Of a stretch of DNA of 25,807 nt, positions 7,424-23,453 are shown one piece after another. Both the position numbers and the translations under genes were made by a program. The notes below the pieces were generated by a model, which made no database searches, was not told the origin of the DNA, and saw nothing but the letters and a program-made list of their open reading frames with translations. The DNA comes from a virus. The stretch covers positions 1 through 25,807 of the IMG/VR virus record IMGVR_UViG_3300031951_001081; one strand, given 5' to 3'. Within the stretch, counting starts at the first letter, position 1. Every line of letters starts with the position of its first letter.

Positions 7424-9049
7424 TTAGATTATAACCTTACCTTGTTTCAAACCAACATCAATCTTTTGAATAGAGAACGGATTACCATTGATGTCAGTTT
7501 CTACACCTAGTTGTAGGATTGCTCCAGCACCACCAACATTTAAGAAAAACTTTTCAAGTACAATACCACCAAAGTATTCTGCAATGTTATATTCACCTAT
7601 ACCATACTCATAACTAGTTCCGCCAGCTAGTACTTTAGTTTGTGCTAAGAAGTTTTCAGAATAATCAAAACCATACTTAACTGCTACTTCAGCACCTGAT
7701 CCGCCAATAACAATAAGACCAATCTTCTTTAGTACTTTAAGTAGGTTAGGTTGATCAAAGTCAAAGTGATTAGTAAAATACTCTAAACGGTATACTGCAG
7801 TATTATCAGTATGTCCAAAGTATTTACCAATATACCCAGGTTTACCTACTAATAGTTCTTTAATATCGTTAACAACAAATGCTTTAGGTTCTAAAGCATT
7901 CCATTTAGTTACTCGATATGATCCATCTTGCATTGGAGATCTAGTATCAAAACAATATACAATCTTAGATGTAGGTAAAGAAAGTAAGTAGAAAGCGTCT
8001 CTACTATAATATACACCCTTCATTGCAACAGCATTGCTTTCTGAGTTAACGTTAGCAATTAGTTCATCACGTACATTTTTAGAAATATCACGGAACGGTA
8101 GAGACTTCTCTTGAATCACTCGAGTCAAGCTACGTACACCAGAGTCAGACAAGAAAATAATATCTGTACCAGTAGATACTACAGAGTCTCTAGCAATACA
8201 TCCTACATTAGGAATATAATCAGCAAGGGTTAACTGAGTTACATCGATAGGGTTGCCATAGATAGCTATGTTGTTCCTACCAAAGATAATTAAGAATCCG
8301 TTGTGTGCTGCTAATGCAACAATCTTATCGTTGTTAGGAAATACTGCGTTTAATGACAAAGATCCTGAGTCTCCACCTTGGAAGTCAGAACCATCAAGTA
8401 GTCTGCTAAAGTAAACAGTCTGTCTATCACCAGTTAAATCAGCTAACCAGATCCTACCATAAGCTGCTAATGCACAATTAGGTTGAAAGTCTGCAGTAGT
8501 ATAACCAAGAGGCAATGAACCTACGTCACCTAGTCTTTGAAATCCAAACGTGCCACTATCGTGTGAGTGTGGGTTAGTACTACCCGCTACAGGAAGCTCA
8601 TGGTACACCAGGACAGGATGCCCAGTCTGTGCCATGTACACATGTGGCTTAGCAGCAGCACCGTCTCCAAAGGGCAGGGAAGCACCTTGCCAGTGGTTTG
8701 CTGTTATGGTTACAGATACGTTACCATTGTTAGCAGCATTACGTACTGTCTGAGTAGTCATAGTTGTAGTACCAGTAAACAACTTATTGTTACCAGCACT
8801 AAGAAGAATGTTACCACCAGTCTTAACCATCTCAAACATAAACTCTACAGGCTTACTAGATGTAAGATCAGAGTTAACTGTAGAGTTTACAGGAGTCCAT
8901 CCACGCCTTGCACCAATCCTACCATACTGATCGATAACACAGTTGTTAGCAGTTAAAGCAAAACCACTAGATAGTTGAACGCTACTATCCTGAGTGTTTA
9001 GACCCAGGAATCCAGGAGCAGCTATACTACCAGTTTGAATTGGTTTCAT
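7424..9049 (-). CDS. Tail nozzle / tail tubular protein B-like (T7 gp12 type)
   Basis: A 541-residue protein, largely beta by composition. The N-terminus APGFLGLNTQDSSV, followed by NNCVIDQYGRIGARRGW, is characteristic of podoviral tubular or stabilisation proteins of the gp12 type. The middle part carries repeated strands with LAAYGRIWLADLTGD, KIVALAAHNGFLIIFGRNNI and YVFLSDSG-like blades, which fits a propeller fold. Its partner gene, the gp11-like adaptor, ends directly upstream in a TAATG overlap. Together they would form the short tail below the portal and bind the fibres. The role is inferred from family resemblance and order. Confidence 0.78.
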   Translation of the reverse strand: MKPIQTGSIAAPGFLGLNTQDSSVQLSSGFALTANNCVIDQYGRIGARRGWTPVNSTVNSDLTSSKPVEFMFEMVKTGGNILLSAGNNKLFTGTTTMTTQTVRNAANNGNVSVTITANHWQGASLPFGDGAAAKPHVYMAQTGHPVLVYHELPVAGSTNPHSHDSGTFGFQRLGDVGSLPLGYTTADFQPNCALAAYGRIWLADLTGDRQTVYFSRLLDGSDFQGGDSGSLSLNAVFPNNDKIVALAAHNGFLIIFGRNNIAIYGNPIDVTQLTLADYIPNVGCIARDSVVSTGTDIIFLSDSGVRSLTRVIQEKSLPFRDISKNVRDELIANVNSESNAVAMKGVYYSRDAFYLLSLPTSKIVYCFDTRSPMQDGSYRVTKWNALEPKAFVVNDIKELLVGKPGYIGKYFGHTDNTAVYRLEYFTNHFDFDQPNLLKVLKKIGLIVIGGSGAEVAVKYGFDYSENFLAQTKVLAGGTSYEYGIGEYNIAEYFGGIVLEKFFLNVGGAGAILQLGVETDINGNPFSIQKIDVGLKQGKVII

Positions 9050-9696
9050 TAATTAGCTACCCAAGTAATCTCATCAGGATAACGATTAGCTTCTGCAGAA
9101 ATATGATCTGCTAATGATTCTTTAAACAATTGATATGCTTCGTTACTCATTACACCGTTGTCCTCACCACGCTCTACCAATGCTTTAGCATAAGCAAGGA
9201 ATATTACAGGTTCAGATGGTACTTTGATAATGTCAGCACTGAGTGTAAGTTTATCAGAAGGCTTGATTACGTTAAAGTAAATATTATATACACCATCAGG
9301 TACAGGATACAAGTCTACTTGTGTGTCACCATTAACATCTACACCGTTAAAGTTATAACGATCTGGAGAACCATACCTAAATGTTTCATTAAGAAACAAT
9401 TCATTCATACGAGAAGTAGTTTCATTGTTTAGAAACCAATCCTTCTCTTGGTTAATAACATCCAATACACGGAATCGTTGACCAATACCAGTTAGTACAT
9501 AGTTAAATACTTGGTTAGCAGTAGTGACTGTTAGTGTTTCAGTCAAAGCATTCCAGTTATAAGCATCTTCTACTTGACGCTTAGCATCATTAATAAACTT
9601 ACCAATAAGCTTAGAGTAAGCATTATCAGTTACCGCAGTAACCTCTTGCTCTCTAAGTCTTACTAGTACATCGTTAACAGCTTCTAAGTAGGTCAT
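9049..9696 (-). CDS. Head-tail adaptor / tail tubular protein A-like (T7 gp11 type)
   Basis: A 215-residue protein with the classic start MTYLEAVNDVLVRLREQEV, followed by a helical bundle (KFINDAKRQVEDAYNWNAL), a beta domain (GQRFRVLDVINQEKDWFL and NGDTQVDLYPVPDGVYNIYF) and a final helix (YAKALVERGED). This is the usual build of gp11-like adaptors that ring the portal. The ATG 9696 begins five bases after a perfect -10 box (9702-9707), so transcripts from that promoter would have essentially no leader and no ribosome site. Transcripts read through from upstream would have a leader but still no clear SD sequence. It is translationally coupled to the gp12-like gene by TAATG. Confidence 0.8.
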   Translation of the reverse strand: MTYLEAVNDVLVRLREQEVTAVTDNAYSKLIGKFINDAKRQVEDAYNWNALTETLTVTTANQVFNYVLTGIGQRFRVLDVINQEKDWFLNNETTSRMNELFLNETFRYGSPDRYNFNGVDVNGDTQVDLYPVPDGVYNIYFNVIKPSDKLTLSADIIKVPSEPVIFLAYAKALVERGEDNGVMSNEAYQLFKESLADHISAEANRYPDEITWVAN

Positions 9697-9701
9697 AATA
9701 T

Positions 9702-9730
9702 ATTATACCATAAAGTAAATTGAATGTCAA
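9702..9730 (-). promoter_or_regulatory. Consensus sigma70 promoter with extended -10 (P3, tail module)
   Basis: On the minus strand: TTGACA at 9730-9725, a 17-base spacer, then TATAAT at 9707-9702, preceded by TGG (extended -10). Both hexamers match the host sigma70 consensus perfectly. The expected start is about 9696-9695, on the start codon of the gp11-like gene. The last 20 bases, from the spacer end through -10 and beyond, match the P2 promoter at 18659 at 19 of 20 positions. Confidence 0.88.
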
Positions 9731-9733
9731 TAC

Positions 9734-9994
9734 CTACCACTTAACTTTATCTGCCCAAAACGCTGCAGACATCTTACCTTTAGCAATGTTAGCTGCGTGC
9801 CTAGCTTTAAATGATGCTTGTCTCTTGGTTGGTTGCCTATCACCTGTAACACCTTGCTGACCAAACCTAATAGTTTTTACTTTGTCTCCTTCTTTAGCCA
9901 CCACCACATGAGACTTAGTAGGATGATTAGGTGTACGCTTAGGCTGATTATATCCAGATACTCCTGCATTAGTTAGTCGAGAATCTTTCTTCAT
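9734..9994 (-). CDS. Small basic phage protein (DUF6321-like)
   Basis: An 86-residue, very basic protein. The sequence includes RLTNAGVSGYNQPKRTPNHP, TKSHVVVAKEGDKVKTIRFG, QQGVTG and a C-terminal SFKARHAANIAKGKMSAAFW block. I recognise this pattern as the phage DUF6321 family; no biochemical role is known to me. The start ATG 9994 overlaps the preceding stop as ATGA and has AAGGA six bases upstream, so I prefer it to the in-frame ATG 10 codons earlier. High Lys/Arg content suggests nucleic acid or capsid-interior contact, which is inference. Confidence 0.8.
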   Translation of the reverse strand: MKKDSRLTNAGVSGYNQPKRTPNHPTKSHVVVAKEGDKVKTIRFGQQGVTGDRQPTKRQASFKARHAANIAKGKMSAAFWADKVKW

Positions 9995-15925: not shown

Positions 15926-15952
15926 CTGCCCAGACCTTGTGAGCCTGGGCAG
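15926..15952 (-). terminator. Intrinsic terminator after the major capsid gene
   Basis: On the minus strand, CTGCCCAG (15952-15945) pairs perfectly with CTGGGCAG (15933-15926) across an 11-base loop, and TTTTC follows directly (15925-15921). The hairpin starts eight bases after the capsid stop codon. A second weaker inverted repeat (CTTAG...CTAAG, about 15896-15921) follows. The run of T is short, so partial termination is likely: strong capsid expression with reduced read-through into the fibre genes. Confidence 0.75.
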
Positions 15953-18248: not shown

Positions 18249-18633
18249 AATACTCATCTAAATAATTAGCAAGTTTTCTTAAAGTATCAGAATTATCTTT
18301 AACACAGCCTAGTGCTATGTTGCAACCCTGACATATAAGACCTCTAATTCCACCGTCTTTATGACAATGATCTACAACTAATCTACCAAACTTACCTTCT
18401 GTTTCAAAATTTTCACATACCAAACATTTGTAATTCTGTTTTAAAAGCTGCTCTTCATATTCTTTTTTACTTATGCCATATGTTCGTTTATAATGCGAAT
18501 CTCTACCATAAGTTTCATAGTGACATTTTTTACAGTGCTTGTAGTATCCGTTTTTATATCGTCCGTTTTTATTAAACAAACTTAATGGAAGCTGTTCTTT
18601 ACATAGTTTACATTCTTGTAGGTCTTTATCCAT
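18238..18633 (-). CDS. Recombination endonuclease VII-like (free-standing nuclease)
   Basis: A 131-residue protein. A first zinc ribbon is formed by Cys8, Cys11, Cys34 and Cys37. It is followed by YGISKKEYEEQL, a pair Cys70/Cys73, the catalytic VVDHCH (Asp88, His89, His91), then GLICQGCNIALG (Cys101, Cys104, Asn105), KDNSDTLRKLANYL and the end. This is the order of the T4 endonuclease VII (His-Me finger) family. Many phage members are stand-alone homing-type nucleases; a Holliday junction role in packaging is the alternative. I start at ATG 18633 (AGGGA upstream), because the upstream in-frame ATG at 18660 lies at the -10 box of promoter P2 and before the expected RNA start. It sits between portal and head genes with its own promoter. 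Confidence 0.88.
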   Translation of the reverse strand: MDKDLQECKLCKEQLPLSLFNKNGRYKNGYYKHCKKCHYETYGRDSHYKRTYGISKKEYEEQLLKQNYKCLVCENFETEGKFGRLVVDHCHKDGGIRGLICQGCNIALGCVKDNSDTLRKLANYLDEYYGN

Positions 18634-18658: not shown

Positions 18659-18687
18659 ATTATACCATAAATTTAATCATTTGTCAA
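18659..18687 (-). promoter_or_regulatory. Consensus sigma70 promoter with extended -10 (P2, before endonuclease)
   Basis: On the minus strand: TTGACA at 18687-18682, a 17-base spacer, TATAAT at 18664-18659 with TGG just before it. Both boxes are perfect. The expected start is about 18652, giving a leader of roughly 19 bases that carries AGGGA before ATG 18633. The -35 box overlaps the end of the portal gene. Confidence 0.88.
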
Positions 18688-23424: not shown

Positions 23425-23453
23425 ATTATAGCATATTTTTAAGGAAAAGTCAA
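23425..23453 (-). promoter_or_regulatory. Sigma70 promoter with extended -10 (P1, terminase operon)
   Basis: On the minus strand: TTGACT at 23453-23448 (five of six), a 17-base spacer, TATAAT at 23430-23425 preceded by TGC. The expected start is about 23418, with a 108-base leader before the small terminase gene. It has the same layout (17-base spacer, TGn) as P2 and P3. Confidence 0.83.

Follow-up and report, generated by a model that had tools for sequence, protein, structure and literature searches.

A consensus sigma70-type promoter five bases before the start codon of a phage adaptor gene, with a predicted leaderless or near-leaderless message

The adaptor gene of an environmental phage is preceded by a perfect sigma70-type promoter, designated P_adp, whose -10 hexamer ends five bases before the ATG. 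The observations that define this arrangement are the promoter elements themselves and their conservation, gaps to the start codon that vary little in length, a weak Shine-Dalgarno (SD) match and the lack of an upstream ATG start. We think it fairly probable that P_adp is a real promoter from which RNA would start on the adaptor start codon, or within 0-4 nt of it, with translation from a 5′-terminal or nearly terminal AUG. The interest lies in the recurrence of the layout and not in the single site of the window.

The DNA analysed (hereafter, the window) is the whole of IMG/VR record IMGVR_UViG_3300031951_001081, which is 25,807 bases long and probably a fragment; its genes include those for terminase, portal, capsid and tail proteins, and a tRNA search of it found none. 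No relative turned up in the adaptor search of genome contigs, nor any cultured one in tblastn searches with the adaptor and portal; the cultured relatives identified with the capsid and terminase were distant only. A contig with an adaptor 98% identical to that of the window, G005, also encodes DNA polymerase A, a DnaB-type primase-helicase, a class II ribonucleotide reductase and ThyX. Ten proteins, nine encoded in the right part of G005 and one in the window, were scanned, and no RNA polymerase was among them; the profile for single-subunit RNA polymerases (PF00940) had no matches in seven contigs but none in 14 control genomes either, so its silence is uninformative. In this phage family, near-consensus sigma70-type promoters recur ahead of the terminase genes, behind the portal gene and in the early region, which fits the use of the host RNA polymerase.

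The adaptor gene (9049..9696, minus strand) codes for 215 aa that match the SU10_adaptor family PF24175 over residues 1-201 (E 3.4e-11; 44.4 bits, with a cut-off of 27), so that the name given to it in the initial annotation is correct; its PHROG match is a tail protein. The upstream gene (9734..9994, minus) belongs to phrog_7595, of unknown function, and its TAG stop codon (9736-9734) is situated three bases before the TTGACA and 37 nt from the adaptor ATG. Downstream, and overlapping the adaptor gene by one base, there is a gene of 541 aa (7424..9049, minus) with PHROG matches to an amidase (phrog_5107) and to head closure Hc3 (phrog_578), which would be read from P_adp too.

P_adp (9730-9702, minus) scores 12/12 and is composed of the -35 element TTGACA (9725..9730) and an extended -10 element, TGG-TATAAT (9702..9710; hexamer 9707-9702), with a 17-nt spacer ending in TGG and thus a TG before the -10. 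The gap between the hexamer and the ATG (9696-9694) is ATATT (9697..9701). The initial annotation had described precisely this succession of TTGACA, 17 nt, TATAAT, five bases and the ATG at 9696, and the promoter scoring bears it out. Perfect sites with a spacer of 16-18 nt occur twice in the window against a shuffle mean of 0.02: among 1000 dinucleotide shuffles, 20 contained one such site and none contained two, and a perfect site with a 17-nt spacer and TG, also found twice in the window, did not appear in any. P_adp is therefore not a chance match, and its consensus hexamers and spacing, within 17 ± 1, are those of a sigma70-type promoter. Looser promoter-like matches (at least 9/12) were not enriched in either of two scans (20 where shuffles averaged 29.1, and 30 where they averaged 26.3). 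Nor does TTTATGGTATAAT stand out when up to two mismatches are allowed, matching the window twice with 1.32 matches expected, although both matches are exact. The sequence TTTATGGTATAATnTATTAT is common to both perfect promoters.

The second perfect promoter, P_cap (18659..18687, minus), is situated after the portal gene and 25 nt before a likely start codon at 18633. The gene directly after it (18633-18238, minus) codes for an Endonuclease VII-type HNH protein (PF02945) and is absent in G005. Upstream of the terminase genes there is an 11/12 promoter with an extended -10, P_ter (23425..23453, minus); an ATG TAA start-stop pair lies seven bases past its -10 (23425-23400, minus), a near-leaderless distance. 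The other strong promoters that precede genes in these phages have leaders of around 20 nt or more, most of them with an SD by eye. One relative that does not have P_adp, L213, carries a strong promoter further upstream of its adaptor (L213:1976-2004), with a leader of around 25 nt. Two look-alikes were discarded as coding sequence after reading the frames by eye: an 11/12 match at 3188-3160 (minus), which encodes DDSSKFVYN within a gene, and a TTGACAC..TATAAT that relatives carry within the gene following their adaptor.

The SD match of the adaptor gene is weak (-2.9 kcal/mol), in keeping with a leaderless gene, which would have no SD site before its start. This is not special here, because eight of 36 other starts (38 minus the adaptor itself and GP88, which had an erroneous coordinate) are weaker still; 21 of the 36 reach -5 or stronger. 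Ahead of the ATG, the in-frame codons are TAA (9705-9703, within the -10), TAT and ATT, so there is no upstream ATG, GTG or TTG start and 9696 is the first usable one. All 171 mapped leaderless starts of S. meliloti were AUG (PMC3616915). The folding of the first 60 nt of the adaptor gene, counted from its ATG, is no stronger than that of shuffled sequence (z 0.22).

Close relatives of the adaptor were collected (best 80 of 455), and 78 were scored after dropping L050 and L078, whose upstream sequence was missing. A promoter of 11 or 12/12 was present in seven of the 78, the gap being 5 or 6 throughout; the remaining 71 scored 9 or less, and most of their adaptors, judged by eye, begin at the upstream stop codon or close to it. 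The promoter is conserved in divergent relatives, yet absent from 71 of the 78 close ones. A scan for promoter plus start codon recovered nine loci, all of them adaptors, two being distant (47 and 52% identity), and the complete unit (gap 5 or 6) precedes adaptors 98, 79, 73, 52 and 47% identical to that of the window. Among six distinct promoter variants, the gap is 5 in five and 6 in L008. L217 and L218 share an identical promoter stretch, while the 120 nt upstream and the first 150 coding nt are 62% and 79% identical, respectively. The promoter is not brought by the upstream gene, since none of 80 homologues of that gene had a site of at least 10/12 after its own stop codon. L004 is nearly identical to the window nearby and has an Endonuclease VII-type HNH gene (PF02945; L004:1751-2165) inserted exactly before the TTGACA, directly ahead of P_adp, its stop codon falling within the -35 element. 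In an adaptor tree of 33 rows (28 of them different; relatives picked by hand plus the window; several forks weak), the promoter-bearing rows were scattered among promoter-less ones instead of forming one clade, which implies gain, loss or exchange at the adaptor junction.

A second clade of adaptors was reached through promoter-bearing members and then fetched by N-terminal protein sequence (best 80 of 312), a fetch that is independent of the gap. All 80 had a promoter of at least 10/12 and an ATG as the first in-frame start, at gaps of 5 (20 loci), 7 (21) or 8 (39). None had a gap of 6; hence, the peak at gap 6 described below does not hold for the adaptors. There are 15 distinct promoter-plus-gap sequences, comprising two dissimilar types, TTGACTTTTAAYCAATTTTATGGTATAAT and TTGACAAAACAGTCAAACTATGATAGGAT, with near variants, and many of the loci are near-identical, so the loci represent far fewer than 80 independent cases. 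In 35 of the 80 loci, but not in the other 45, another in-frame start follows nine bases later. Two different upstream genes precede these promoters in the seven loci that were read, indicating that the promoter goes with the adaptor; between L438 and L442 the promoter is 95% and the upstream sequence 52% identical, the upstream gene changing while the promoter stays. When adaptors with such a promoter were grouped, the gap was 5-8 in 17 of 19; the two others were L123, with a gap of 11, and L180, with a gap of 21 that comes with an SD-like AAGGA.

The recurrence of this tight layout in relatives makes a leader of 0-4 nt likely for the adaptor message, as judged from sequence. The modal discriminator is 6 bp (PMC7566282), which with the gap of 5 in the window would place the first transcribed base on the T of the ATG. 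Counted from the hexamer, the A occupies position 6, one base earlier than the modal start (position 7). A start on the G, at position 8, would likewise fall on a pyrimidine-purine step, although it would spoil the start codon. The candidate starts in the window would thus be position 6 (A) or 8 (G), and in L008 position 7 (A); gaps of 7-8 would allow leaders of 1-4 nt, within the limit of 5 nt by which leaderless messages have been defined (PMC7566282). The proposal of the initial annotation that the message is leaderless consequently stands in part: the retained promoter, the first ATG at 9696, the weak SD and the gaps of 5-6 (5-8 in the second clade) speak for it, but the early position of the A and the adaptor gaps of 11 and 21 do not.

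To place the layout in a wider context, viral contigs were scanned for TTGAC, a spacing of 17 and TTTATGGTATAAT, ignoring start codons, which gave at least 121 sites in at least 119 stretches. An ATG occurred at gap 6 in 16 of the listed sites, against approximately three per position at gaps 9-40. Ninety listed sites led to an ORF (at least 60 aa, or at least 30 aa if open-ended; homologues were kept, which inflates the counts), with groups at gaps 5-8 (19 sites) and 20-39, the latter with SD sites by eye. Counted by ORF family, there were six at gap 6, five at gap 23 and four at gap 31 among the matches listed, so by family the signal is modest. A second scan was restricted to gaps 4-8 and gave at least 119 stretches, from which 80 loci were used; pooling the loci of the two scans produced 205 distinct sites, 138 ORFs and 76 families among the matches listed. 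Family-by-gap incidences at gaps 4-8 were 1, 4, 20, 4 and 3 among these matches, counts that are partly selected because one scan was limited to those gaps; in this partly selected sample, gap 6 takes 20 of 32 incidences (binomial 1.9e-7 under equal probability of the five gaps). The fetched loci contained 188 other promoters, of which 96 had an ORF (at least 50 aa, or at least 30 if open) within 60 nt: four at gap 6, two at gap 7 and one at gap 8 (7/96), none at gaps 2-5 or 9-10, and 62 at 25-40. Strong promoters with an ATG close behind the -10 are, then, a minority class in viral contigs. A scan with an 18-nt spacer gave 45 stretches without a peak at 6 (8, 14, 7, 11 and 5 sites at gaps 4-8), but with only six ORF families (1, 1, 2, 1 and 1) this set is too small for testing the peak. 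Genes of the close-gap class include a T4-like DNA polymerase, UvsY (spacer 18, gap 5), an AMP-binding enzyme (Pfam) and a gene of 74 aa. In loci L303-L347, two arrangements with spacer-18 promoters were recurrent, one 5 nt before the ATG of a T4-like UvsY and another 7 nt before that of a cysteine-rich gene of 152-156 aa.

The layout is also found in cultured phages. Homologues of the 74-aa gene are situated between the portal and scaffold genes of Methylophilales phages MEP401 (L524:280-565) and MEP402 (L523:280-565), whose host is Methylophilales FZCC0133, and in both the annotated ATG (of gp43 or gp45) is preceded by TTGACT, 17 nt, TATAAT and the six bases TATAGT. In three cultured relatives of the polymerase case the close-gap layout was not found: the gap was 12 nt for gp43 of HTVC008M, gp43 of Melnitz-2 had a longer leader, and Mosig had no such promoter. 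Likewise, the uvsY starts of the cultured or named phages C48C1, syn9, S-SM2 and S-T4 had no promoter at 5-8 nt. Searches of the literature on leaderless messages and phage transcription returned, among the matches listed (mostly non-subscription papers), no title on leaderless adaptor genes. The initial annotation had considered leaderless messages rare in lytic phages of Gram-negative bacteria, a notion weakened by the minority class in viral contigs, by MEP401 and MEP402, and by a remark made in passing in work on phage AR9 (PMC5312081), according to which transcripts of phages "are often leaderless".

The tight gap might also have no translational meaning, P_adp being simply squeezed into a compact junction where a very short leader is tolerated. 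We regard this as possible, if rather unlikely. The whole intergenic space, from stop to ATG, is 37 nt; the adaptor start is a place of exchange, as seen in the endonuclease insertion of L004 and in the promoter-bearing adaptors not being one clade; and the gap varies among 5, 6, 7 and 8, and rarely 11 or 21. Against it, all of the best 80 of 312 second-clade adaptors keep the start within 5-8 nt of two dissimilar promoters, and across families a gap of 6 is favoured over 4, 5, 7 and 8.

Alternatively, the promoter could be real and start RNA at the G of the ATG or just inside the gene, serving the downstream genes only, with the adaptor translated from read-through RNA. Position 8, where a G follows a T, could plausibly serve as a sigma70 start, and position 6 is early; the tail genes beyond the capsid hairpin described below may need a message. 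However, on read-through RNA the adaptor would have just its weak SD, 37 nt past the upstream stop, so the stop-start coupling of many relatives is lost in the window; additionally, the gap of 6 in L008 puts an A at the modal start position, and the excess of families at gap 6 is what a start on A predicts. We consider this alternative unlikely. It is very improbable that there is no promoter and that an AT-rich, unstructured stretch for ribosome entry merely resembles one: the AT-richness and the weak SD would suit it, but ribosome entry does not need a TTGACA, and conservation extends beyond the -10 to the -35, the 17-nt spacer and the TG, with chance excluded. The perfect 12-nt palindrome ATAATATATTAT, which covers the -10 in the window, is scarcely credible as the operator of a phage regulator, being broken in L020, L008, L217 and L218, where the promoter stays.

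Returning to a start at or near the adaptor AUG, P_adp would act within the late structural operon and would probably be read by the host RNA polymerase. RNA would begin at the AUG or within a few bases of it, and the adaptor would be translated from a terminal or nearly terminal AUG, without a good SD site, while the tail genes behind it would be carried by the same transcript. The major capsid gene is followed by a terminator-like hairpin (15926..15952, minus), which four contigs have with compensatory changes, including two compensatory pairs in G017 (alignment read by eye). This hairpin might cut read-through from the capsid promoter, with P_adp making up the message for the tail genes beyond, a presumed dosage role; in relatives that lack P_adp, read-through would have to suffice.

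Extending this model, environmental phages may possess a discrete class of strong promoters 5-8 nt before the AUG of selected genes, producing leaderless or near-leaderless messages whose translation by intact 70S ribosomes would sustain these genes when canonical initiation is limiting. We put this forward tentatively, as possible rather than probable. Members of the proposed class would be the adaptors, the small gene between portal and scaffold, the T4-like DNA polymerase and UvsY, with a gap that is mostly 6 across families. The conserved placement of a promoter on the start of a virion-assembly gene, recurrent in many uncultured phages, together with that at the structural-operon gene of MEP401 and MEP402, would make leaderless translation testable in phage infection. 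Such genes may be misread by gene finders that rely on an SD and by models of transcription units that presuppose a leader.

Discussion of leaderless messages usually concerns phage repressors and certain bacterial phyla; their translation is reported to escape inhibition by kasugamycin (PMC5230787). The cI gene of lambda is transcribed from P_RM, a sigma70-type promoter with its -10 directly before the AUG that forms the 5′ end. P_adp resembles P_RM in the position of the -10, but cI is a regulator of a temperate phage, whereas the gene of the window is a virion-assembly gene with a near-perfect promoter. Transcripts of the Thermus phage phiYS40 reportedly lack leaders too; its host is a thermophile and its promoters differ from P_adp. 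The PeSL cassettes of T4-type phages consist of early promoters followed by a stem-loop. They are like P_adp in that the promoter marks the edge of a module and its neighbours change, but no stem-loop directly follows P_adp, with five bases between the -10 and the ATG and a start of the gene that folds as shuffles do. The layout of P_adp is similar to that of the Deinococcus-Thermus genes in which the -10 region is adjacent to the ORF, where in Deinococcus the motif lies around 6-7 bp before ORFs that are leaderless and have no ribosome binding site (PMC12340547). Those are host genes with a TANNNT by the ORF (PMC12340547), whereas P_adp has a full -35 and an extended -10, and, unlike in that case, many other genes of the phage of the window have SD sites.
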